Of a stretch of 25,812 nucleotides of DNA, positions 548-25,626 are shown piece by piece. The notes under the pieces were generated by a model. The model worked only from the letters and a program-made list of their open reading frames with translations. It ran no database searches and was not told where the DNA came from. How positions within the stretch are numbered: the first letter of the stretch is position 1; each line of letters opens with the position of its first letter. This DNA is from a virus, in the IMG/VR virus record IMGVR_UViG_3300020190_000317, positions 1 to 25,812 of that record. One strand, given 5' to 3'. Position numbers and translations under genes: made by a program.

Positions 548-2131
548 ATGAACGCAACATCACAACAGTTACGTGACAAAATCAAAGAAGAATTTAAGAA
601 ATGTGCGTTAGACCCTGCATATTTCCTATCACGATATTCCTATATCCAACACCCGATTCGTGGTCGGGTGTTGTTTGATTTATACCATTATCAGAGAACT
701 GCTCTAAAAGATTTCGAAGGTAACGATTATAACATTGTTCTCAAAGCTCGTCAAATTGGTATTTCCACATTGGTTGCAGGGTATGCTCTTTGGTTGATGT
801 TGTTCCATAAAGACAAGAACGTATTGGTTATCGCAACTAAGCAAGAAACAGCAAAGAACTTGGTTACCAAAGTAAAGTTTATGCACCAAAACCTTCCAGT
901 ATGGTTACGAGGTAATGTCATCACGGATAATAAGTTATCATTACAATTTGGTAACGGGTCACAAATTAAAGCAGTGGCATCAAGCCCAGATGCAGGTCGT
1001 TCTGAAGCATTGTCTCTTCTCATCCTTGACGAAGCTGCGTTCATTGATGCAGCAGATATTATTTGGACAGCAGCATCCAGTACATTATCAACGGGTGGTA
1101 AAGCAATCCTACTGTCCACTCCAAACGGCGTTGGTAACTTCTTCCATAAGATGTGGCAACAAGCTGAAACCAAAGCCAATAATTTTAATACTATTTTATT
1201 AAATTGGAAGGTACATCCAGAACGTGACCAAGCGTGGCGCGACCGTCAAACGGAACTGATGGGTGAGATGCAGGCAATTCAAGAACACGATGCATCGTTT
1301 ATTTTCTCAGGCAACACGGTAGTTCCAGCAGAAATACTTGAATTCTATAAGAAAACATATGTTCAAGAACCAATATCAAAAGAGGGATTTGATGGAAATT
1401 TGTGGGTATGGGAATATCCGCACCCATCTAAGTCATATATTGTGTGTGCTGACGTTTCCCGCGGGGATGGGGAGGATTACTCAACTTTCCACGTAATTGA
1501 TATCGAAGCATCGGCACAAGTCGCAGAATATAAAGGTAAAATTGAGACAAAAGCATTTGGAAATATGTTGGTGTCTATCGCAACTCAGTATAATGATGCT
1601 CTCCTTATTCCAGATAATAGTAGTATTGGGTGGAATGCTATCCAACAAATTATCGACCGTGGGTATAAAAATCTCTTCTATATGTCCAGAGATTTACAAT
1701 ATGTGGACGTAGAACATCAAATGACGGGAAAATACCACAAAGAAGAACGAGGAATGGTGCCAGGATTTATGATTTCTCAAAGAACCAGACCATTAATTAT
1801 TAACCGATTAAAAGAGTATATGTTGGAAACATCGTTTACTGTTCGGTCAAGTCGAATGATTGCGGAGTTAGAAACATTTATCTGGAAAAATGCTAGACCA
1901 GAAGCATTATCTGGGTATAATGACGACTTAGTTCTTGCCCTTTGTATTGGGTTATGGGTTCGGGATACCGCTCTTAGATTACATCAAGAAGGAATTGAAT
2001 TGACTAAGTTAGCTATCGATAAAGCTAAGTATCAACTAGGGTCTATGGTCTATACCACCAACGGCTTAAACCACAATCCATACGAAATGAATATTGGGGA
2101 AAATAAAGAGAATTTACGGTGGTTACTGTAA
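548..2131 (+). CDS. terL: Terminase large subunit (T4 gp17-like)
   Basis: This is the DNA-packaging motor, an ATPase that pumps DNA through the portal joined to a nuclease that cuts concatemers. It has 527 residues; T4 gp17 is somewhat longer. The ATPase domain has a deviant Walker A (KARQIGIST, 66-74), Walker B (LLILDE, 157-162) and a coupling motif (LSTPNG, 189-194). The nuclease domain of the RNase H fold has acidic clusters at D302 (CADVSRGDGEDYS), D356 (IPDNSSIGWN) and D459/D460 (YNDDLVLAL), as expected for TerL. The start is set by AGAGG just upstream of the ATG. No small terminase subunit is seen in the window. The usual lysine before Thr/Ser in Walker A is absent (GIS instead of GKT), with K66 earlier in the loop; similar shifted P-loops occur in other TerL proteins. 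Confidence 0.96.
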   Translation: MNATSQQLRDKIKEEFKKCALDPAYFLSRYSYIQHPIRGRVLFDLYHYQRTALKDFEGNDYNIVLKARQIGISTLVAGYALWLMLFHKDKNVLVIATKQETAKNLVTKVKFMHQNLPVWLRGNVITDNKLSLQFGNGSQIKAVASSPDAGRSEALSLLILDEAAFIDAADIIWTAASSTLSTGGKAILLSTPNGVGNFFHKMWQQAETKANNFNTILLNWKVHPERDQAWRDRQTELMGEMQAIQEHDASFIFSGNTVVPAEILEFYKKTYVQEPISKEGFDGNLWVWEYPHPSKSYIVCADVSRGDGEDYSTFHVIDIEASAQVAEYKGKIETKAFGNMLVSIATQYNDALLIPDNSSIGWNAIQQIIDRGYKNLFYMSRDLQYVDVEHQMTGKYHKEERGMVPGFMISQRTRPLIINRLKEYMLETSFTVRSSRMIAELETFIWKNARPEALSGYNDDLVLALCIGLWVRDTALRLHQEGIELTKLAIDKAKYQLGSMVYTTNGLNHNPYEMNIGENKENLRWLL

Positions 2132-2588: not shown

Positions 2589-2605
2589 TACATTTGGAGA
2601 GCAAT

Positions 2606-3277
2606 ATGATTAGATTGTCAGGATTAGTGAATCTAAAGGCATTAAAAGAAGAATCACACGAAGAACCAACACCAGCTCCAACTGTAGCTGTTGATAAAAA
2701 GTCTCGCGTTGAAATGAAATTAAAGAGACTCAAAGAAATGCAAATGACCCCGGACCAAGAAAAGAAGGTGGATGAACTCTTGGTTCAATATGAAGAATTA
2801 ACCGCTAAGCAAAAGCAACTTGATGTAGATAAGGACGGCAAGATTGAAGCTGATGATTTAGCAAAACTTCGTGCTGGTAAGAAGGCTGACGAAGCAGTTG
2901 GGGAAGACCACGAAGTATCAATGGCATCCAAGACCCTTGACTCTATCATCAGACACGCAACCGAATTAAAGGGTAAGATTGGAATGGAAGAAAAGGACAT
3001 TCCAGCATGGATTCAAGACCATATTGCAGTTGCTGAAAACAACCTTGACCAAGCAAATACCAGTTATCACGAATACGGTGATGAAGAAAAGACTGATATG
3101 CCAGTAGACAAGGATTTAGAAGCAATGAAAGAAACAGTTAATGAAGCAGCACCAGAAGGTTGGGAAAAGACTGTATTGGCTATGAAGAAGCACAAAGAAA
3201 TTGACAATCCTTGGGCACTTGCGCATTGGATGAAAAGCAAGGGATATCAACAACATAAGAAAAAAGGAAAAGAATAA
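2606..3277 (+). CDS. Putative virion protein with EF-hand-like loop
   Basis: I start this gene at ATG 2606, which has GGAGAG correctly spaced before it. An in-frame TTG at 2594 would place that ribosome binding site inside the coding sequence. The 223 residues have a modular look. There is an N-terminal leader with L-K-E at 13-15, and a Pro/Thr linker. A charged helical region contains a canonical EF-hand/dockerin-type loop, DVDKDGKIEADD (73-84), with acids at positions 1, 3, 5, 9 and 12. A helical unit follows (about 105-157, containing WIQDHI), then a C-terminal unit (about 184-220, GWEKTVLAMKKHKEID then a basic tail). The loop suggests calcium binding. The other units resemble short modules seen in many T4-like phage virion proteins, a statement from memory. 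The gene overlaps the next by one base. Confidence 0.8.
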   Translation: MIRLSGLVNLKALKEESHEEPTPAPTVAVDKKSRVEMKLKRLKEMQMTPDQEKKVDELLVQYEELTAKQKQLDVDKDGKIEADDLAKLRAGKKADEAVGEDHEVSMASKTLDSIIRHATELKGKIGMEEKDIPAWIQDHIAVAENNLDQANTSYHEYGDEEKTDMPVDKDLEAMKETVNEAAPEGWEKTVLAMKKHKEIDNPWALAHWMKSKGYQQHKKKGKE

Positions 3278-3639
3278 TGGAATCCGTCGCAAAGTTTATC
3301 TCAGTGCTTCTTGCTAGTCGTGAACAAGCCCATATCTTCCATCTTCAATCTCCTTCATATGCTCAACATAAGGCATTACAAGGATACTATGAAGATATCG
3401 TAGACTTGGTTGACACCTATGTAGAATCATACCAAGGCCGTTACGGAATTCTAAAGGGATATAAGCCAACAACTCAAATTTTTGAAGATAACTCAACTCT
3501 TCGCTATTTTGCAGGATTATTATCATATGTCGATAATACCCGTAAAGAACTTCCACAAGACGGTGAACTCAATAATACCGTAGATGAAATCGTTGGTCTT
3601 ATTTCCAGTACTCACTACAAACTCAAATTCCTAAAGTAA
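3277..3639 (+). CDS. Dps/ferritin-like protein (candidate)
   Basis: The product has 120 residues, predicted largely helical. Residues 16-53 align by eye with the ferroxidase helices of bacterial Dps. H19, H31, D46 and E50 have the same spacing as E. coli Dps H51, H63, D78 and E82 (H-x11-H then +15 and +19). The flanking pattern is shared too: QAH around the first His, L-x-G-[FY] after the second, and D-x-x-D-x-x-x-E. The Dps Asp67 position is Q35 here, so iron chemistry may be altered or lost. Dps proteins bind iron and protect DNA as cages. The start overlaps the preceding stop by one base. It sits between putative internal head proteins but lacks their [L/I]-x-E leader. It may instead be a structural four-helix protein with no ferroxidase activity. 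Confidence 0.6.
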   Translation: MESVAKFISVLLASREQAHIFHLQSPSYAQHKALQGYYEDIVDLVDTYVESYQGRYGILKGYKPTTQIFEDNSTLRYFAGLLSYVDNTRKELPQDGELNNTVDEIVGLISSTHYKLKFLK

Positions 3640-5254: not shown

Positions 5255-7141
5255 ATGGCAGATACTAGTGTATTTGGTCGCCTACGGAAACTGTTTTCCA
5301 CAAACACAGTTGTCCGCAATGTAGGTGGTAAAAAGTTAAAAGTTGCAGATACGGATAACGTTCAATCCTTTATTAACCGTAGAGGCATTGACCGTTATCA
5401 TCGTGTCTATTCGTCAATGACCGGCGGATATGGTGCAGCAGGTGGTCGGTATGAATCTGCAGCAGCATTTCAAGGGTCACGTTTACAATTGTTCCGTGAT
5501 TATGATATGATGGATAATGACCCAATCATCTCATCAGTAATGGACATTTACGCAGACGAATCCACTGTAAAAGACGAATTTGGTCAAGTACTTAGTATCC
5601 GTTCAAAGAACCAACAAATCCAAGATATTCTCCATAACTTATTCTATGATGTATTGAACGTTGAGTTCAATCTCTGGCCCTGGGTCAGAAATATGGCTAA
5701 GTATGGGGATTTTTTCTTATTCCTTGATATTGACGAAAAGTATGGCGTAGTCAATGTCATTCCGCTCTCGGTATATGAAACGATTCGTATTGAAGGACAA
5801 GACCCAGGTAATCCATTCTCGGTGAAGTTTAAAGTAGAAAATGATTTCTTAGCACTTGGAAAGAAAGAATTTGATAATTATGAAGTTGCCCATTTCCGTC
5901 TTCTCTCCGATACTAACTTCCTTCCATATGGTAAGGCAATGATTGAGGGTGGTCGTCGTATTTGGAAGCAACTTCAATTGATGGAAGATGCAATGTTAAT
6001 TCACCGTATCATGCGAGCACCAGACAAGCGTAAGGTGTTGGTTGATATTGGAAATATTCCAGCAAACGAAATTGATACACACATGCAACGTATTATCGAC
6101 CGCATGAAAAAGACACCATTGGTTGACCCAAAGACAGGGGATTACAACCTTCGGTATAATATGATGAATATCACAGAAGATTTCTATCTTCCTGTTCGTG
6201 GTAAAGATTCTGGAACAGATATCCAAAACCTACCAGGCTTACAATTTAACGCAATTGAAGATATTGAATACCTTCGTAACAAGTTGATGGCAGCATTCAA
6301 AGTACCGAAGTCATTCTTGGGGTACGAAGAAGATACTAATGGTAAGGCAACATTGGCAGCACAAGACGTTCGTTTCGCACGTACCATTGAACGCATTCAA
6401 CGCATTATGGTGTCAGAACTTACCAAGATTGCTATCATCCATTTATACGTTCAAGGATTCACCGATGAAGAACTAATTGACTTTGAACTTGAAATGACCT
6501 CACCATCAGTCATTTATGAACAAGAAAAGTTAAACTTGTGGAAGGAAAAGGTAGCATTGTCTAAAGATATTGCAGACAGTAAGTTCTTGTCACGTGACTG
6601 GATTTACCACAACATTCTTCAAATTGCCGAAGATGACGCTCGTACGGAACAAGAAAAGATAGTCAAGGATGTTGAGTGGGTCGGCAAGGCCGAAGCAGCA
6701 CAACAAGCAGCTGCACAACCACAACAACCACAAGCTGGGGCAGGTCAGCCTGAAGCAGAAGCACCAGCAGAACCAGAAGCTGGAGCAGAAGAGGAACAGC
6801 AACTGGATACTGTAGACGCTGTACTTGCATCTCTTGAGGATATCCCAACAGAAGAAGAAGGTGGGGATGAAGCTGAGTTGGAAGAAGCTAAGATGGGGCG
6901 TCCAAAGGTTGGTCAAAAGTATGGCCAAGACAGTCACCCACGTGGTCGTGACCCACTCGGACATAAAGAAAATCTAGGTGCATTACGTGTAGGACAACAA
7001 CGCAAACCTTCCAGAAAGTCTCCGTTGTCTCTCGAAAATCATGAAATTTCGGGTCTAATTAAACAACTAAACGCTCATAAAATTGCACCAGAAACCTCTA
7101 GTATCTTAAACGAAGACAATATTTTAGACATCGAAAACTAA
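5255..7141 (+). CDS. 20: Portal vertex protein (T4 gp20-like) with extended C-terminal tail
   Basis: The dodecameric portal forms the channel for DNA packaging and ejection, nucleates the prohead and docks terminase. The 628 residues compare with 524 in T4 gp20. Residues 1-478 carry the family core, including RDYDMMDNDPIISSVMDIYA, a WPWVRNMAKYGDFFL segment, and the stem/wing region with FLGYEEDTNGKATLAAQDVR. Beyond this comes a low-complexity Ala/Gln/Pro/Glu stretch (479-515), an acidic stretch to about 545, then a basic unit with GRPKVGQKYGQDSHPRGRD (548-566). The extension is the main difference from T4. GAGGGG precedes the start. The gene ends before an AT-rich inverted repeat and a promoter candidate. 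Confidence 0.94.
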   Translation: MADTSVFGRLRKLFSTNTVVRNVGGKKLKVADTDNVQSFINRRGIDRYHRVYSSMTGGYGAAGGRYESAAAFQGSRLQLFRDYDMMDNDPIISSVMDIYADESTVKDEFGQVLSIRSKNQQIQDILHNLFYDVLNVEFNLWPWVRNMAKYGDFFLFLDIDEKYGVVNVIPLSVYETIRIEGQDPGNPFSVKFKVENDFLALGKKEFDNYEVAHFRLLSDTNFLPYGKAMIEGGRRIWKQLQLMEDAMLIHRIMRAPDKRKVLVDIGNIPANEIDTHMQRIIDRMKKTPLVDPKTGDYNLRYNMMNITEDFYLPVRGKDSGTDIQNLPGLQFNAIEDIEYLRNKLMAAFKVPKSFLGYEEDTNGKATLAAQDVRFARTIERIQRIMVSELTKIAIIHLYVQGFTDEELIDFELEMTSPSVIYEQEKLNLWKEKVALSKDIADSKFLSRDWIYHNILQIAEDDARTEQEKIVKDVEWVGKAEAAQQAAAQPQQPQAGAGQPEAEAPAEPEAGAEEEQQLDTVDAVLASLEDIPTEEEGGDEAELEEAKMGRPKVGQKYGQDSHPRGRDPLGHKENLGALRVGQQRKPSRKSPLSLENHEISGLIKQLNAHKIAPETSSILNEDNILDIEN

Positions 7142-8583: not shown

Positions 8584-9171
8584 ATGAAGAATTTATTAGT
8601 TGAATACAATGTCATTGAATACGGAAAGGATTTATTAGCTGAAGCGGCTGATGTTAGTAAACCATTGATGTTAAAGAATGTTCTTCTTCAACGAGCTGAA
8701 GCAAAAAATCAAAATGGACGTATTTACCCACAAGAAATCTTACAGCGTGAAGCCGGAACTTATAAAGAAAACTTTGTAGTCCAACGCCGTGCTCTTGGTG
8801 AACTTGACCATCCAGAAAGTCCAGTGGTCAACCTTAAGAACGTATGTTGTAACGTTACGGAATTATGGTTTGAAGGGCAAGACGTTCGTGGTAACATTGA
8901 AATTCTTTCCACTCCATCGGGCAATATTGTTCGTGAACTCATCAAAAATAACATTCGTCTTGGTGTATCCTCACGTGGTATGGGGTCAGTTAAGTCAATC
9001 GGTGAAAATACCGTAGAAGTTGGTGACGACTTCTCACTTATTTGTTTTGATATTGTCAGTAACCCAAGTACACGCGGTGCATTCATTAACGAAAGTACGA
9101 AAAGTACTATCACTACACCATATTCACGTATTGATTCACTAGTATACGATTTCCTCAGTGAAGTAAAATGA
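8584..9171 (+). CDS. 21: Prohead core protease (T4 gp21-like)
   Basis: This serine protease, of the herpesvirus-assemblin-like fold, cleaves scaffold, capsid and internal proteins during head maturation. The 195 residues compare with 212 in T4 gp21. Motifs are NGRIYP (44-49), the histidine motif GELDHPES (72-79, H76), GVSSRGMGS (127-135) with the nucleophile serine, and SLICFDIVSNPSTRG (151-165). Two [L/I]-x-E sites near its own N-terminus (LVE at 5-7, LAE at 18-20 followed by AA) fit self-processing. Its start lies just after the previous stop with AGAGGAAAG upstream, and its stop overlaps the start of the following metallopeptidase by four bases. Confidence 0.93.
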   Translation: MKNLLVEYNVIEYGKDLLAEAADVSKPLMLKNVLLQRAEAKNQNGRIYPQEILQREAGTYKENFVVQRRALGELDHPESPVVNLKNVCCNVTELWFEGQDVRGNIEILSTPSGNIVRELIKNNIRLGVSSRGMGSVKSIGENTVEVGDDFSLICFDIVSNPSTRGAFINESTKSTITTPYSRIDSLVYDFLSEVK

Positions 9172-9731
9172 AATTAGCAAAGGAATTTGTTAAGTTTACA
9201 GTTAAAGAATTAGGATTAAAATCATTACCTAAGAGTATTAAGTTCGAGGGTGATGGTTATTCTGCGCAACATTTAACATTTGGAACGTATAATCCTTCTA
9301 CCGATGAAATCGTGGTGGTCAAGGGTCAACGTCATCCTATTGATGTATTACGTACATTAGCCCACGAATTGGTTCACCACAAACAACGTGAAGATGGACA
9401 AGAATTGAATGGTGAAAATGGATCAACCACGGAAAATGAAGCAAATGCAATGGCTGGAGAACTGATGAGAAAGTTTAGAACAGTTCGTCCAGAGATATTC
9501 AATGTTGGGCCTTGGGGATTTCATACCAATATGGAAGGAAAGATTCAATCTATTTTACAAGTTGCAAAAACAGGTAAAGCACAAAAGATTGAAGAACATT
9601 ATGTAGATGGATTTACTGCAAAACTATTAGTAACAGTTGCTCACAATCTATCCGCAAATAATAGAAAGAAGTTTTATAACGAATCTATAGGTGATATGGT
9701 CACCTTAGCATATAAATTAGTTACTCAGTAA
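9168..9731 (+). CDS. Putative zinc metallopeptidase (HELVH) in the head module
   Basis: The product has 187 residues. The zincin motif is HELVH (66-70), in the context LRTLAHELVHHKQ. Downstream acidic residues at STTENEANAMAG (87-98; E89 or E91) are placed as expected for the third zinc ligand of gluzincin-type enzymes. The N-terminal part (about 24-58) looks like the beta strands that precede the HExxH helix. The C-terminal 40 residues (VDGFTAKLLVTVAHNLSANN onward) form a separate small helical unit. There is no signal peptide, so it acts in the cytoplasm or the virion. The ATGA overlap with the prohead protease strongly suggests coupled expression and a role in head maturation or as a packaged protease. 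The substrate is unknown. Confidence 0.78.
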   Translation: MKLAKEFVKFTVKELGLKSLPKSIKFEGDGYSAQHLTFGTYNPSTDEIVVVKGQRHPIDVLRTLAHELVHHKQREDGQELNGENGSTTENEANAMAGELMRKFRTVRPEIFNVGPWGFHTNMEGKIQSILQVAKTGKAQKIEEHYVDGFTAKLLVTVAHNLSANNRKKFYNESIGDMVTLAYKLVTQ

Positions 9732-11404: not shown

Positions 11405-12988
11405 ATGTCAGACGTAAATTCACTTATCAACGAAGCCGGTTCAGCACACAAGGTAATCGTTGAACAATCCCGCCAATTAGCAGGTAAGTGGGAAAAGTCA
11501 GGTCTTCTTGAAGGCTTGAAGGGAACAGAAAAGCAAGGTATGGCAGTAATGCTTGAAAACCAAGCTTCACAACTTCTCTCAGAAAACTCATTCACCAACC
11601 AAGCAGGCACCTCAGGTGAACAATGGGCAGGTGTAGCACTTCCATTAGTCCGTAAGGTCTTCGGAAGTATCGCAAGTAAGAACTTCGTATCAGTCCAACC
11701 AATGAACCTTCCTTCAGGACTTGTGTTCTTCATGGACTTCAAGTACGGTAACACTATACTTGGAAAGACCGCAGGTCAATCACTCTATGGTACCGCACTT
11801 TCAAACACCTACAGTGCATTTGGTAACCAAGATGCAGGTGGCTTATACGGCGCAGGTGCATTCGGCTACTCAATCAACGATGCATCAACAAACATCGTTC
11901 CAGTAGCTTCACAATCAGTAAGTTTGTCAGATATCAACTTCAACACTCTTTTCAACACTGCAAGTCTCAGTAAGTACGTAGTACCAGCAGTAAGTGCTTC
12001 AAACGCAGACTTCTTAGCAGTACGTACCTTCGTACCAAGTGGTTCAGGTGCAGACATGGCAGCACTTGTCCTCCAAGAATTCACCAAGTACGATGGCACC
12101 AACATCACCTTCATCGTCAACACCGCAGCATCAGGTACCAAGACTGTTGACAAGATTACTTTCGTCAAGCAACCAACCGACACCACCCGTGGTGACTTCG
12201 AAGATCGTGATGGTTCAACCGACTTAGCAATTCCACAAATCGATCTTGAACTCCGTTCAGAAACTATCGTTGCTAAGACACGTAAGTTAAAGGCAGTCTG
12301 GTCACCAGAACTTGCACAAGACTTGAACGCATACCACAGTGTGGATGCAGAAGCTGAATTAACAGCAATGTTAAGTGATTACATCTCAACCGAAATCGAC
12401 CTCGAAATCCTTGATATGTTAATCGCAGCTGTACCAAGTCTTACCACCGAATTCTGGTCAACCCAAATCGGTAGTGTATACAATTCAGTAACCGGTGCAT
12501 TTGCAGTATCTTCATACACTGGTACCGCATGGACCAATATGACCTGGTTCCAAACACTTGGTCAAAAGATGCAAAAGGTAAGTAACAAGATTCATCAACT
12601 CACCATGCGTGGTGGTGCAAACTTTGCAGTATGTTCACCAACCGTCGCAACAATCCTTGAAACCATCCCAGGCTTCATGGCAAACACAGATGGTGACAAG
12701 ATGGAATTTGCAGGTGGCGTAACCAAGGTTGGTTCATTCCAAAACCGTTACACCATCTACAAGAACCCATACATGAAGGAAAACGTCCTATTATTGGGCT
12801 TCCGTGGAAGTAACTTCCTCGAAACTGGTGCAGTATATGCACCATATATCCCACTCATCATGACTCCGCTCGTGTATGACCCAAACAACTTCACCCCACG
12901 CCGTGGTGTGATGACCCGTTACGCAAAGAAGGTAGTACGTCCTGAATTCTTCGGTAAGGTTCTTATCGACGGATTAAACTTACTATAA
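11405..12988 (+). CDS. 23: Major capsid protein (T4 gp23-like)
   Basis: This HK97-fold shell protein has 527 residues (T4 gp23 has 521). The N-terminus has I-N-E followed by AG (8-12), and a second site, LSE (58-60), close to the position where T4 gp23 is cut (after residue 65). The family signature SVQPMNLPSGLVFFMDFKYG lies at about 96-115. Later segments include ELRSETIVAKTRKLKAVWSP and a C-terminal FTPRRGVMTRYAKKVVRPEF, typical of gp23. AGGAGA precedes the start, and an intrinsic terminator lies 28 bases after the stop. Codon use is noticeably enriched in C-ending codons compared with neighbouring small genes, as expected for a very highly expressed protein. No separate vertex protein (gp24) is seen in the window. 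Confidence 0.97.
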   Translation: MSDVNSLINEAGSAHKVIVEQSRQLAGKWEKSGLLEGLKGTEKQGMAVMLENQASQLLSENSFTNQAGTSGEQWAGVALPLVRKVFGSIASKNFVSVQPMNLPSGLVFFMDFKYGNTILGKTAGQSLYGTALSNTYSAFGNQDAGGLYGAGAFGYSINDASTNIVPVASQSVSLSDINFNTLFNTASLSKYVVPAVSASNADFLAVRTFVPSGSGADMAALVLQEFTKYDGTNITFIVNTAASGTKTVDKITFVKQPTDTTRGDFEDRDGSTDLAIPQIDLELRSETIVAKTRKLKAVWSPELAQDLNAYHSVDAEAELTAMLSDYISTEIDLEILDMLIAAVPSLTTEFWSTQIGSVYNSVTGAFAVSSYTGTAWTNMTWFQTLGQKMQKVSNKIHQLTMRGGANFAVCSPTVATILETIPGFMANTDGDKMEFAGGVTKVGSFQNRYTIYKNPYMKENVLLLGFRGSNFLETGAVYAPYIPLIMTPLVYDPNNFTPRRGVMTRYAKKVVRPEFFGKVLIDGLNLL

Positions 12989-19943: not shown

Positions 19944-21935
19944 ATGGCAAATGAATTTGTTGCACGTAAAGGTCTGATAGTCCTTGCGAATGGCGCAAGG
20001 GTAACAGGCTCTTTAGGTGTTCAAGGTGATATTAACGCAACTGGTTATAATGTCACTGCGTCAAATTTACAATTATCTGGAAATGCCAATATCGATGGGA
20101 ATGTCACTATCGGCGGTAATATCACGGTCGGTAACGCTGATATCGATGTCGTCAAGTTTCTGGCGGAAGTTAGTTCTTCCATCGTCCCCGACGTTAATAA
20201 TGCGTTTGACCTCGGTTCTGGGTCCAAGTACTGGAAGGACTTATATGTAAGTGGTACCGCATATATCGGTAGTGTTCAAGCAACCACTATTAATCTTAAT
20301 AGTATTACGGTTCTTAATGACTTAACAGTTGATGGAAATACTAAGTTAGGCAATGCATCAACTGATAACGTTTCTATTACTGGTAGTGTTGTTTCAACGG
20401 GGCCAGTTACCGCACAATCATTCTCGGGGTCATTCTCTGGTAGTGGTGCACAAATCACCAATATTCCAAATAGTGGACTAGTTAATAGTTCTGTAACGGT
20501 CACCGCAGGTACAGGACTAGCAGATGGTGGTCTAGTTGCATTAGGTGGTTCTGTTACCCTTAACTTGGACACTGGTTCGTTTACCTTTACTGATGGTGTT
20601 AAAAAGAAGTTAAATGCAGATGCAGTAGTCAGTAGTTCGGCACAAATTGATGTAACACAAACTACCAATATTGCAACAATCGCAACTACTGGTTCAAACA
20701 CCTTTACTGGTGTACAGACTATTTCCAATACAACAAACAGTACCAATTATACAAACGGTGCGTTAGTTGTTGATGGTGGTGTGGGTATCGCTAAGGATGT
20801 AAACATCTCTGGTAGTTTGACTGTTACTGGATTGTTGACTGCAATCAGCATGTCAACGCAGTTCGTAACATCATCGCAAATTCTTATCGCAGATAATGAA
20901 ATTATACTTAATACAACCAACGCAGTACGATTTGGTGGAGTCTCAGTTGTAGACTCTGGTTCCGCAACGCCACTCACTGGGTCATTATATTGGGATAGTT
21001 ACACCAATCGTTGGTTAGTACAAAATATCTCTGGTTCATCAATTACGAGTGGTATCCTCATACTTGGTCCAGAAAATACAGGATCAACTGGTACAGAAGT
21101 TTCACTGGTTGAAGGACGTATTCCAGTAGCAACAGAAGGTAATCATATTGATAATAGACCTGCATATTCACCACTTCGTATTGAAGGTAGTACACTTCAC
21201 GCAGAAGAAAATGTATATGTAACGGGGTCTGTGAGTGCATCAGCATTTGCAGGTGACGGTAGTAACCTTACTGGTATCGTCACTAATCTTAATGTCTCGG
21301 GTTCAGATGGTGGTACCAGTACTGTCTCCCTAAAGACACAATCATTAATTGTTAGTGGTACCAACGGTGTTGCAGTTACCGCAACGGGGCAAACACTTAC
21401 TGTTAGTGGTAGTAACGCAACCACTAATAGTCGTGGTGTTGCATCGTTCAATGGAACAAACTTTACTGTAACTAACGGCGATGTTGCATCTAATGCAATT
21501 AACTTCAATGGTGCAAATATTAATCTTGGTGGGGTACACTCATTTGGTCTACAAAATATTACTCCATATGGTACATCAACCACGGACCAAGTATCACTCC
21601 AAGGTGGTGCAATTATCCAAGGTGTACTCTTTACTACCGCTAGTAACGCCGATGTTGACACAGGTACAGAAGTAGTAGCTACGGTTTCAACTGGAAGTTA
21701 TGATAGTGCATTCTTTGATTACGTGGTAAAGAAAACAACCAACTACCGTGTTGGTACAGTTATGGCGGTATGGGATAGTACTAGTAACGTAGAATTCACA
21801 GATACATCAACAAATGACTTAGGTGACACTAGCGATGTTATTTTCACCGTTGATGTTCTTTCTGGTAACGCACGTTTGAAGGCAACGGTCACCACAAATG
21901 ATTGGGTAATTAAGACCGCAATAAGAGCGATGTAA
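19944..21935 (+). CDS. Tail fibre-like protein (663 residues), paralogue of next gene
   Basis: The N-terminus MANEFVARKGLIV is shared with the next fibre gene (MAHEFIARKGLIV) and probably attaches both to the same site on the tail. The shaft is Ser/Thr/Gly/Asn-rich with repeats such as GNANIDGNVTIGGNITVG, FSGSFSGSGAQITNI and FAGDGSNLTGI. YWKDLYVSG (96-104) is a motif I recall from other phage fibres. Residues 235-437 are homologous to 257-453 of the next protein. The C-terminal domain (586-663), with FTDTSTNDLGDTSDVIF, matches the end of the preceding gene product. GGGAGA precedes the start. Likely role: host-surface recognition. No chaperone or auto-cleavage domain is recognised. Confidence 0.87.
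   Translation: MANEFVARKGLIVLANGARVTGSLGVQGDINATGYNVTASNLQLSGNANIDGNVTIGGNITVGNADIDVVKFLAEVSSSIVPDVNNAFDLGSGSKYWKDLYVSGTAYIGSVQATTINLNSITVLNDLTVDGNTKLGNASTDNVSITGSVVSTGPVTAQSFSGSFSGSGAQITNIPNSGLVNSSVTVTAGTGLADGGLVALGGSVTLNLDTGSFTFTDGVKKKLNADAVVSSSAQIDVTQTTNIATIATTGSNTFTGVQTISNTTNSTNYTNGALVVDGGVGIAKDVNISGSLTVTGLLTAISMSTQFVTSSQILIADNEIILNTTNAVRFGGVSVVDSGSATPLTGSLYWDSYTNRWLVQNISGSSITSGILILGPENTGSTGTEVSLVEGRIPVATEGNHIDNRPAYSPLRIEGSTLHAEENVYVTGSVSASAFAGDGSNLTGIVTNLNVSGSDGGTSTVSLKTQSLIVSGTNGVAVTATGQTLTVSGSNATTNSRGVASFNGTNFTVTNGDVASNAINFNGANINLGGVHSFGLQNITPYGTSTTDQVSLQGGAIIQGVLFTTASNADVDTGTEVVATVSTGSYDSAFFDYVVKKTTNYRVGTVMAVWDSTSNVEFTDTSTNDLGDTSDVIFTVDVLSGNARLKATVTTNDWVIKTAIRAM
20646..21254 (+). repeat. 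Fibre module shared between two genes, copy 1
   Basis: This encodes residues 235-437, starting IDVTQTTNIATIATTGSNTF, through GALVV-x-GGVGI, NISGSLTVTGLLTA, WDS, GPENTG and GRIP-x-AT to VYVTGSVSASAF. It matches copy 2 at 22768-23358 in protein and, in its first 150 bases, clearly in DNA. Duplication or exchange between fibre genes is indicated. Confidence 0.8.
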
Positions 21936-21999
21936 AATAATAAAAAGGTTATATTATAATTGATAACACTCACCTTTGGATATGTGAAGAAGGGGAATT

Positions 22000-24900
22000 A
22001 TGGCACATGAATTTATAGCCAGAAAGGGGCTTATTGTCCCCTCTGGTAGCTTATTAGTTAATACTGGATCAGTAAATGTAGGTGGAACAATCACCGCATC
22101 TTTCTTCAAAGGTGATGGTAGTAATCTAACAAACTTACCAGCAACCACCATAGCATCGTCGGTTGTTATTACAAATACATTTACTGGTGATGGTACTACC
22201 AATACATTTAATTTAGGTAGTCAGTATATTGCCAATTCCCTTATGGTCAGTGTTGACGGTTTGTTCTATACTCCGTCCACCGACTTCACGATTTCTAGTA
22301 ATGATATCGTCTTTACATCTGCACCACCATCTGCGTCGGACATTACGGTTCGAGCAATGGTCAATATCGTTAGTGGTGGTGTCGGGACATATAGTGGGTC
22401 ATTCATTGGTACTGCATCGTTTGCAACCACCGCGCTCACCGCAAGTTATGTGTCGGGAGCAGCAAGTGACTGGAATACATTAAATAACAAACCAGCAGGT
22501 ATCGTATCCAGTTCGACTCAAGTTGACTATCTCCAATTACAAAATATTCCGTCAGACATCGTATCTAGTAGTACGCAAGTTGTTGCGTTACTTCCAACTG
22601 GTACGGTATCTAGTTCTGCGCAAATCAATACAGGATCCTTTAGTGGGTCATTTACTGGAAGTGTTCTGGGAACTAGTAGTTTGGCACAAAATGCTGTTAC
22701 CGCATCTTATGTAGAATATACAAATATTGGTAATAAACCAACGTTAGTATCTGCGTCATCTCAGATTGATGTAACACAAACTACCAACATTGCAACAATT
22801 GCAACCACGGGTTCAAATACATTTACGGGTATTCAAACCATTAATAACACCACTAATAGCACCAGTTATCTAGATGGTGCGCTAGTTGTTGCTGGTGGAG
22901 TGGGGATTACTAAAAACGTAAATATCTCCGGCAGTCTAACAGTTACAGGATTATTGACCGCAGTATCAATGTCCACCCAATACGTGACTTCTTCACAGTA
23001 TGTGGTGGGCACCAGTCGTGTCATTCTCAATGATGATGATTTAGTACGATTTGCTGGACTATCAATTGTAGATTCTGGGTCAGCATCTCCAACTACTGCA
23101 TCTATTCTATGGGATAGTTTACAACACAGATTCATTTACGAAAATCTCAGTGGGTCTGGATACAACAGTGCCATCATTATCGCTGGTCCAAAGAATACGG
23201 GGTCACTTGGAGATGAAACCGAATTAACGGTTGGTCGAATTCCGTATGCAACTGGTGGTGACCATATCGATAACTCTCCAGCTAGAGTAGAAGGTACTAC
23301 TGTTCATTTTGATGCAAATGTATATGCAACTGGGTCAATTACCGCTGCAGCATTTACGGGGTCTGTATTCGGTACCACCAGTACTGCCTCGTATGTAGAA
23401 TATAATAATGTTACGAACAAACCAACATTAGTATCGGCATCATCACAAATATCGTATGGTGGACTTTCAAACATCCCAGCAGATATTGTCAGTAGTTCGG
23501 CTCAAGTTATTGCATTCTTACCAACGGGCACTGTATCATCCTCTGTACAAATTAACACGGGGTCATTTACCGGATCGTTTATAGGAGAGCTAACGGGCTC
23601 ACTATTAGGTACTAGTAGTCACGCAGTTGCAGCAGTCAGTTCGTCATATGCATTAACTGCATCCTTTGCAATGAACGGTGGTGGAGGCGGTGGGTCTGGA
23701 TTCCCATTTGCTGGTGATGCGGTCATTACGGGGTCACTATATGTGACTGGTAGTACCATTTCGGGGTCATTCGTTGGTGATGGGTCTGGTATCACTGGTG
23801 TCAACGTTTCTACCTCTGTAGTCAGTGATATATATCAGTTTGTAGGTAATGGGTCAACACAACTCTTTGTTCTTTCTCAAAGTTATCTAGGAAACAATGT
23901 ACAAGTTAGTGTTGATGGTTTGGTCTTTACTCAAGGAGTGGACTACACATATACCACGGGATCTATTACATTTGTCGTAGCACCACCGTCCTCATCAAAC
24001 GTCCTCGTTTCTGCATTACTCAATAGTCAAACAAATCTTAGTGGGTCATTTTCTGGATCGTTTATTGGTGACGGTCATGGTATAACTAATCTTCCACTAG
24101 CAATTACTATCGACACCTATAAGTTCTCAGGTGATGGTGTTACTACCGCATATAATTTAAATTATGAATACGGTCCCAACTCACTGTTCATAGACGTTGG
24201 GGGTATTACCTATGTGCATCCAGAAGATTATACCATTAGTGGAACCACGATTACCTTTACCGAAGTCCCTGCTTCATCATCTAATATCCTTGTTCGTGCA
24301 TTCCAATCCCAATCATTCTTAGGTAGTTCAAGTTTCTCTACTACGTCCTCATATGTGGATTATACAAATGTAGGAAATAAACCGACACTTGTATCTGCGT
24401 CATCTCAAGTATCGTATTTAGGATTATCAAATATTCCTGCAAACATTGTTAGTAGTTCTACCCAAGTCACCGCATTCTTACCTACGGGAACCGTATCCAG
24501 TTCGGTACAAATCAATACAGGCTCATTTAGTGGGTCGTTTACTGGTACATTAACTGGTACTTCAAGTTTGGCAAGCAACGCAGTAACCGCCTCATACGCA
24601 CTGACCGCATCCTACGCAGAAAATGCAGGTGCAGGAGCAGGATTCCCATTCAGTGGGTCAGCAGTTATCACGGGTTCACTTCTGGTGTCACAAAGTGGGG
24701 TTACCGTCAGTGGGTCAGTAAATGTAAGTGGAGGTATCACAGGATCATTTAGTGGGTCAGGAGCAGGACTTACTGATTTACGGGCATCTATTGGCATTGA
24801 CACTTATACCTTTGTTGGCAACGGCAGTACCACCGAATATTATCTCTCACAATCGTATACCTCAAATTCATTGTTGGTATCGGTTGAAGGTATCAATTAC

Positions 24901-25626
24901 GCTGTTACCGAAGATTATGCTTTGTATGGACCAACGATGTCCTTTACCGTTGCTCCACCAAGTCAATCTAATGTGGTGGTCAAGGCGTTCCTTGCAGTCA
25001 GTTCGGGGTCATACATTAATTATACTGGGTCATTTATTGGTGATGGGTACGGATTAAATAACCTTCGCGGGTCATTGGCAATAGATGAATATATCTTTAT
25101 TGGTAATGGATCAACCACTTCTTATGTCTTATCGTCATCGTATGCACCACCATCACTCAATGTGACCGTGGGTGGATTGCGATATGTCAGTCCAAACGAT
25201 TATACGGTCACAGGCAGTACGATTAACTTCACCCAAGCACCAGCATCACAATCACTCATTGTTTTTGATGGATTCGTCGTAGTCAGTTCTGGGTCGGTTG
25301 GAACCTTTAGTGGGTCATTCCTCGGTAACGCAACCACGGCAACATCTGCATCATATGCCACCACATCAAGTTTTGCAAGTAATGTGTTGAAAACCAAAGC
25401 AGGGTTGCTCACAAATACTTCGTTTGGTGGTACACCATATACCGCAAGTGTGACCTTCAGTAGTGCATTTAATAATATTAACTATTCTATCGCAGTCACA
25501 GGTGAAGATGCAAGAATCTTTACCGTAGAAAGTAAGACCGCAAGTGGGTTCGTGGTCAACACCAACAGTAATACCGCAGTAACAGGAACCACCTATTGGA
25601 CCTGCACGGCATTTGGGGAAAACTAA
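22000..25626 (+). CDS. Giant repetitive tail fibre / adhesin-like protein (1208 residues)
   Basis: The N-terminal attachment-like sequence is MAHEFIARKGLIVPSG. The body is built from recurring units. Five copies of a beta module of about 67 residues (56-121, 607-673, 702-768, 931-998, 1026-1092) have the pattern D-x-Y-x-F-x-G-[DN]-G-x-T, then L-x-x-x-Y, V-x-V-x-G, DYT, and APPS-x-SN. Three copies of a SASSQ...VSSS-x-Q...GSF-x-GSF unit start at about 178, 478 and 798. One copy of the module is shared with the previous fibre gene (257-453). FPF-x-G-x-AVITGSL occurs at 567 and 881. A poly-Gly hinge lies at 560-565. The C-terminal domain (about 1129-1208: VTFSSAFNNINYSIAVTGED, a FTVESKTASGFVV strand and a final YWTC) could be an H-type-lectin-like beta-sandwich tip. 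AAGGGG precedes the start. Confidence 0.88.
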   Translation: MAHEFIARKGLIVPSGSLLVNTGSVNVGGTITASFFKGDGSNLTNLPATTIASSVVITNTFTGDGTTNTFNLGSQYIANSLMVSVDGLFYTPSTDFTISSNDIVFTSAPPSASDITVRAMVNIVSGGVGTYSGSFIGTASFATTALTASYVSGAASDWNTLNNKPAGIVSSSTQVDYLQLQNIPSDIVSSSTQVVALLPTGTVSSSAQINTGSFSGSFTGSVLGTSSLAQNAVTASYVEYTNIGNKPTLVSASSQIDVTQTTNIATIATTGSNTFTGIQTINNTTNSTSYLDGALVVAGGVGITKNVNISGSLTVTGLLTAVSMSTQYVTSSQYVVGTSRVILNDDDLVRFAGLSIVDSGSASPTTASILWDSLQHRFIYENLSGSGYNSAIIIAGPKNTGSLGDETELTVGRIPYATGGDHIDNSPARVEGTTVHFDANVYATGSITAAAFTGSVFGTTSTASYVEYNNVTNKPTLVSASSQISYGGLSNIPADIVSSSAQVIAFLPTGTVSSSVQINTGSFTGSFIGELTGSLLGTSSHAVAAVSSSYALTASFAMNGGGGGGSGFPFAGDAVITGSLYVTGSTISGSFVGDGSGITGVNVSTSVVSDIYQFVGNGSTQLFVLSQSYLGNNVQVSVDGLVFTQGVDYTYTTGSITFVVAPPSSSNVLVSALLNSQTNLSGSFSGSFIGDGHGITNLPLAITIDTYKFSGDGVTTAYNLNYEYGPNSLFIDVGGITYVHPEDYTISGTTITFTEVPASSSNILVRAFQSQSFLGSSSFSTTSSYVDYTNVGNKPTLVSASSQVSYLGLSNIPANIVSSSTQVTAFLPTGTVSSSVQINTGSFSGSFTGTLTGTSSLASNAVTASYALTASYAENAGAGAGFPFSGSAVITGSLLVSQSGVTVSGSVNVSGGITGSFSGSGAGLTDLRASIGIDTYTFVGNGSTTEYYLSQSYTSNSLLVSVEGINYAVTEDYALYGPTMSFTVAPPSQSNVVVKAFLAVSSGSYINYTGSFIGDGYGLNNLRGSLAIDEYIFIGNGSTTSYVLSSSYAPPSLNVTVGGLRYVSPNDYTVTGSTINFTQAPASQSLIVFDGFVVVSSGSVGTFSGSFLGNATTATSASYATTSSFASNVLKTKAGLLTNTSFGGTPYTASVTFSSAFNNINYSIAVTGEDARIFTVESKTASGFVVNTNSNTAVTGTTYWTCTAFGEN
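22768..23358 (+). repeat. Fibre module shared between two genes, copy 2
   Basis: This encodes residues 257-453 of the giant fibre and corresponds to 20646-21254. The order of motifs is conserved (TTNIATIATTGSNTFTG, NISGSLTVTGLLTA, GP-x-NTGS, GRIP, HIDN), with divergence in the middle. Confidence 0.8.
23428..24024 (+). repeat. Internal duplication of giant fibre, copy 1 (about 200 residues)
   Basis: Residues 477-675 contain in order LVSASSQ, LSNIPA-x-IVSSS, AFLPTGTVSSSVQINTGSF, FPF-x-G-x-AVITGSL, GDG, and one D-x-Y-x-F...APPS beta module. The same order recurs at 24388-24999. Confidence 0.78.
24388..24999 (+). repeat. Internal duplication of giant fibre, copy 2 (about 204 residues)
   Basis: Residues 797-1000 repeat the motif order of 23428-24024 with moderate divergence. 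One extra beta module (702-768) lies between the copies. Confidence 0.78.

Follow-up and report, generated by a model that had tools for sequence, protein, structure and literature searches.

The window analysed here, i.e. the whole stretch of 25,812 nucleotides, is a T4-type head/tail module containing genes for the terminase large subunit, a DUF5856 protein, the portal protein, a prohead protease and the major capsid protein Gp23 (Table 1). PHROG and Pfam matches place the DUF5856 gene between those for terminase and portal, in agreement with the head-module context proposed in an earlier reading made without database searches (the sequence-only reading), and Gp23 is closest to that of Flavobacterium phage immuto and of uncultured giant phages. 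The DUF5856 reading frame starts with ATG at 3277, stops with TAA at 3639 and encodes 120 amino acids. The gene just upstream (2594-3277) has no PHROG match, and part of its product, DVDKDGKIEADDL, weakly resembles an EF-hand (Pfam EF-hand_5, E 0.009, below cut-off); on this sequence likeness its product is possibly a second metal-binding protein beside that of the Dps-like gene described below. Elsewhere in the window, directly after the prohead protease gene, 9168-9731 encodes an IrrE/M78-like putative zinc protease (LAHELVHHKQ, of HExxH type), and 19944-25626 encodes two long, tail-fibre-like Ser/Thr/Gly-rich proteins with repeated segments (e.g. the DVTQTTNIATIATTGSNTFTG repeat).

Table 1. 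Positions in the window of the genes discussed, and of the predicted helices and key residues of the DUF5856 protein.
Feature	Position	Strand	Basis or remark
Terminase large subunit	548..2131	+	PHROG 2, E 2.8e-47; Pfam Terminase_6N
DUF5856 / PHROG 858 protein, predicted Dps-like four-helix bundle, 120 aa	3277..3639	+	Pfam PF19174, PHROG 858, AlphaFold2
Helix A, residues 2-24, with H19 and H22	3280..3348	+	DSSP on model
H19	3331..3333	+	95% conserved; more likely the upstream His of an H-x-x-H motif
H22	3340..3342	+	In all covering relatives; probable Dps H51 equivalent
Helix B, residues 28-56, with H31, D46 and E50	3358..3444	+	AlphaFold2 model
H31	3367..3369	+	Dps H63 equivalent, in all covering relatives
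Q35	3379..3381	+	Dps D67 position, not conserved
D46	3412..3414	+	Dps D78 equivalent, invariant
E50	3424..3426	+	Dps E82 equivalent, invariant
B-C crossover, residues 57-73, no BC helix predicted	3445..3495	+	AlphaFold2 model
Helices C (74-89) and D (96-118)	3496..3630	+	D103, Y114 and L116 conserved
Portal protein	5255..7141	+	PHROG 213, E 3.1e-61
Major capsid protein Gp23	11405..12988	+	Pfam PF07068, E 1.1e-73

Profile matches assign the window protein clearly to DUF5856 (PF19174; E 1.8e-23, 83.8 bits against a Pfam cut-off of 34.6 bits) and to PHROG 858 (E 5.3e-27), and PF19174 is matched by 31/31 members of the family alignment; NCBIfam gave no match for the window protein. Relatives were identified by tblastn in 1,405 phage records, including T4 (rI.-1, also MobD.6), Slopekvirus KP15, Ackermannviridae, GAP32 and Aeromonas phages, and span genome sizes from the small phage P19250A up to phages of more than 600 kb. 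Searches of viral contigs yielded 80 loci at first and about 140 more when other family members were used as queries; the 31-member alignment has no conserved stretch of 7-10 columns, and the collection scans used single proteins. A scan of genome contigs, by a method that detects close relatives only, gave no cellular relatives of the window protein. Amongst 14 control genomes B. subtilis was the sole match for PF19174 (below cut-off) and PHROG 858, and the gene behind this match, which was left out of account, may be a Dps such as MrgA. The literature searched contained no paper mentioning DUF5856, and no published function for DUF5856 or PHROG 858 was found. The database name of PHROG 858, 'starvation-inducible transcriptional regulator', is Dps-flavoured, whereas the other database entry is a DUF without a name; a role as transcriptional regulator was rejected, there being no sign of a DNA-binding regulator among the fold matches.

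The sequence-only reading had proposed that H19, H31, D46 and E50 reproduce the spacing and local contexts of the ferroxidase residues H51, H63, D78 and E82 of E. coli Dps, a bacterial protein that handles iron and guards DNA, with Gln at the Asp67 position. These features are present exactly as described: the window protein carries the four residues, QAH (17-19), L34-x-G36-Y37, D43-x-x-D46-x-x-x-E50 and Gln at 35, and the MG1655 protein has H51, H63, D67, D78 and E82 in the same local contexts. The pattern Hx11Hx14Dx3E was found in one of the 112 window ORFs of at least 60 aa (the window protein itself). Among 3,100 unrelated phage ORFs it turned up once, and shuffling the window protein 200,000 times produced it 69 times.

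Conservation was assessed across 74 relatives less than 85% identical to one another. D46 and E50 are invariant (74/74 each), and H31 and H22 are each present in 73/74, the single gap being a truncated sequence, i.e. in all covering relatives. H19, at 70/74 (95%), is less conserved than H22; free variation of H19, H31, D46 and E50, which the sequence-only reading had named as evidence against itself, is thus not the pattern observed. D103 (71/74, 96%) and Y114 (73/74) are also conserved, and L116 is near-invariant. The spacings of 15 between H31 and D46 and of 4 between D46 and E50 are fixed in 73/73 members and identical to those of Dps, and the H22-H31 spacing is 9 in 55 members, 12 in 12 and 13 in six. 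Since the H19-H31 spacing differs between members (12, 15 or 16), the exact match to E. coli Dps over this interval is partly coincidental; QAH and G36 are not family-wide either (A18 in 29/54, G36 in 18/54). In the alignments the Dps ligands H51, H63, D78 and E82 find counterparts in H22 (or H19), H31, D46 and E50, whereas D67 has none, position 35 being Gln in the window protein and free in the family (Q in 41 relatives, G in 19, D in six, A in three and E in two).

AlphaFold2 predicts four helices for the window protein (residues 2-24, 28-56, 74-89 and 96-118 by DSSP; pLDDT 94.3) and the same fold for ORF078 of phage LIMEstone (~34% identical; pLDDT 93.1); on these models the protein is a ferritin-type four-helix bundle, the architecture on which the sequence-only reading had staked its proposal. 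No BC helix is predicted, either at residues 57-73 of the window model or in the LIMEstone ORF078 model. Foldseek comparison of the window model with the PDB gave mostly Dps and other ferritin-like chains, with TMq of 0.65-0.74 and no E below 0.001; for the LIMEstone model nearly all of the best 50 matches were Dps or ferritin-like (probability 1.00), with TMq up to 0.78 and a best E of 0.019. Profile searching of PDB sequences returned the Dps family first (2d5k, 7.5e-5; H. pylori-type NapA, 1.9e-4 to 6e-4), designed (de novo) helical bundles also appearing near 1e-4 in one such search, and the resulting alignments place H22, H31, D46 and E50 on the Dps ferroxidase ligands. The same residues were aligned by hhalign against seven Dps sequences, at a probability of only 16-20%. 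The Pfam Ferritin profile (PF00210), which all true Dps controls match, has no match in the window protein and matches in 2/31 family members (best E 0.06).

The four-helix fold in two models, the profile matches to Dps and the conserved H/H/D/E set uphold the proposal that the window protein is Dps-like, and it is probably Dps-derived. It is, however, outside the Dps family in the strict sense, because it falls below the PF00210 cut-off and has neither the Asp67 ligand nor the BC helix. Foldseek comparison of the window model with a viral library further returned predicted proteins from giant viruses of eukaryotes (Pithovirus LCPAC404, Fadolivirus) and a 'DpsA' from a crAss-like phage; on these model comparisons the fold family may not be confined to tailed phages. 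A separate observation concerns the Dps gene of Staphylococcus epidermidis plasmid pSWS47, in which an in-frame stop codon directly follows that for the ferroxidase His (TH*YMRG) and which is probably a pseudogene.

The assignment of H19 as the counterpart of Dps H51 in the sequence-only reading, which had missed H22, appears to require correction. Profile alignments to NapA, 2d5k and a Dps profile put H22 on H51 with a three-residue gap in the A-B loop, and the helix ends likewise indicate H22 and an A-B loop three residues shorter. H19 then aligns three residues before H51, where Gram-positive Dps and NapA too have His (K-V-H-N-F-H-W), and in the 12 members with an A-B loop three residues longer the Dps spacing of 12 is restored, counted from H22. 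A single-sequence phmmer alignment to E. coli Dps nevertheless favours H19, and a PSSM register test, in which all scores were negative, gave a mild overall preference for H22 (mean -21.8, vs -27.1 for H19), which was the choice of 5/7 Dps, E. coli and Roseobacter Dps preferring H19; the correction to H22 is therefore likely but not proven.

Two published proteomes place relatives of the window protein in virions. The annotation of LIMEstone1 gives ORF078 as a 'confirmed structural protein' and puts a late promoter immediately before the gene, and ORF78 was detected in the LIMEstone1 virion proteome as a 13.15 kDa protein with 3 unique peptides and 28.21% coverage (PMC3296691); the ORF078 sequence (117 aa, 13,149 Da; 33/117 = 28.21%) agrees with the published table, and the LIMEstone preparations contained rIIB, ligase and PhoH too (PMC3296691). 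In CsCl-purified virions of ValerieMcCarty03/04 a 'starvation-inducible transcriptional regulator' was recorded with 26/27 spectra, respectively, above the contaminant cut-off of 15 spectra set by the authors (PMC13119998), and this protein is placed in the family by its product name, which family members in a T4-like Klebsiella phage also bear, rather than by its own sequence. A TATAAATA late-promoter match lies upstream of the T4 rI.1-rI-rI.-1 operon. In several unrelated phages the family gene lies next to those for the portal, terminase or head-tail adaptor, in many others it is away from head genes, and in T4 and many of its relatives it lies beside lysis-inhibition genes, not head genes.

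Our preferred reading, to which we assign a probability of roughly 0.6, is of a minimal Dps-derived, ferritin-like protein that is made late, is carried in the virion and has an inter-subunit H/H-D/E metal site, probably for iron and with putative oxidation activity. The gene product (~120 aa), ferritin-like and of Dps descent, would be made together with the products of the late structural genes, some or all of it entering the virion. In the predicted structure H19 and H22 lie at the end of helix A and H31 at the start of helix B, with D46 and E50 fifteen and nineteen residues further on. H31 and E50 are thus modelled 19 residues and ~28 Å apart on one straight helix, and therefore the ligands cannot meet within one subunit. 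Dps ferroxidase ligands meet across an antiparallel subunit pair, and we infer that here, too, the site would form only by antiparallel pairing, so that each of the two sites per dimer would set H22 (with H19) and H31 from one subunit opposite D46' and E50' from its partner. Such a site would most likely bind iron, Zn or Mn being possible, and might serve to clear ferrous iron or peroxide from the surroundings of the particle or the DNA.

A more far-reaching version, in which a virion-packaged, shrunken Dps-type protein, from T4 to the giant phages, gives metal-dependent redox protection to packaged or injected DNA through a modified site (H-x-x-H plus H, D and E, without Asp67), T4 rI.-1 being such a virion metalloprotein, is offered tentatively, as we consider the odds to lie somewhat against it. 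The condensation of DNA suggested in the sequence-only reading is not supported. Family members are acidic, with a median pI of 5.3 and a core net charge of -5, and the N-terminus of the window protein is three residues long and lacks the Lys-rich tail, itself a feature of some true Dps only; as the BC helix and Lys-rich N-terminal tail are absent and the protein is acidic, DNA condensation is unlikely, and condensation or coating by way of a basic tail was rejected on the grounds of charge and the missing tail. According to its title, PDB entry 1o9r is a Dps belonging to a family whose protection of DNA does not involve binding.

Presence in virions, a gene that in several types of phage neighbours those for portal, terminase and head-tail adaptor, an unconserved D67 ligand, small size and the lack of a basic tail would suit a repurposed Dps fold whose role in the head or neck is purely one of structure or assembly, with the H/H/D/E set holding a structural metal (e.g. 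Zn) or dimer-interface hydrogen bonds and no oxidation of iron. A purely structural metal would not, however, need an Asp/Glu pair at the exact Dps spacing (73/73), and in many phages the gene is kept away from the head genes; we regard this explanation as rather unlikely.

The T4 locus suggests a different role, that of a lysis-inhibition accessory, as proposed for rI.-1, working together with RI and RIII inside the infected cell and not in the particle. T4 rI.-1 overlaps rI within the rI operon, an arrangement shared by KP15 and SmallBear_ER8, and over-expression of rI.-1 is described as slightly delaying the collapse of lysis inhibition (Golec 2010, as reviewed in PMC6832632). That effect is given in the review as slight and as obtained by over-expression from a plasmid (PMC6832632), whilst RaK2 carries the family gene without any of rI, rI.1, rIII and holin t (PMC3622015), there is no recognised rI neighbour in the window, and family members occur in virion proteomes; a lysis role for the family is accordingly judged very unlikely. 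It could also be argued from the weak Foldseek and hhalign statistics, and from the designed bundles among the profile matches, that the protein is a generic four-helix bundle and resembles Dps by convergence. The best natural matches are nevertheless consistently Dps, four invariant residues fall on the ferroxidase ligands and the Hx11Hx14Dx3E pattern is rare by chance, and we find convergence scarcely credible.

That the family is catalogued, that database names hint at Dps and that true Dps genes occur in phages (PMC8008677) was already known; newly described here are the invariance of the ligands across the family, the correction of the register, the absence of Asp67 and of the BC helix, and the connection of the fold with two virion proteomes. 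If the virion-carried metalloprotein reading is true, a DUF present in more than 1,400 sequenced phage genomes, that of T4 among them, would gain a fold, a metal site and a location, the virion, and Dps-type redox chemistry would occur in or on phage particles, making virion-carried iron or metal chemistry directly testable, including in T4.

Compared with Dps, NapA and Dpr (PF00210; PDB 1dps, 1ji4, 2d5k, 3ge4), the window protein has the four-helix bundle and the H-H...D...E arrangement with spacings of 15 + 4, and its helix B is of the type HKAxxxxYExxxDxxDxxxE, as in NapA. It differs in length (120 aa against ~145-170 aa), in being acidic and without an N-terminal tail, in an A-B loop that is three residues shorter in most members, in the loss of the Asp67 ligand and the BC helix, and in falling below the Pfam Ferritin threshold. 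T4 rI.-1 is a homologue (~25-26% identical) with the same invariant H/H/D/E residues, but its gene neighbours rI, and its residue at the Dps D67 position is Asp, as against Gln in the window protein. The LIMEstone1 homologue (Ackermannviridae), of the same predicted fold, is encoded among unknown virion protein genes near the DNA primase gene, rather than in a terminase-portal cluster. The true Dps proteins of phages ('Gratiaviridae', Lactobacillus and Streptomyces phages) are, like DUF5856, ferritin-like and phage-encoded; they are found by ordinary Dps similarity, whereas DUF5856 forms a separate and much more divergent family (PMC8008677).
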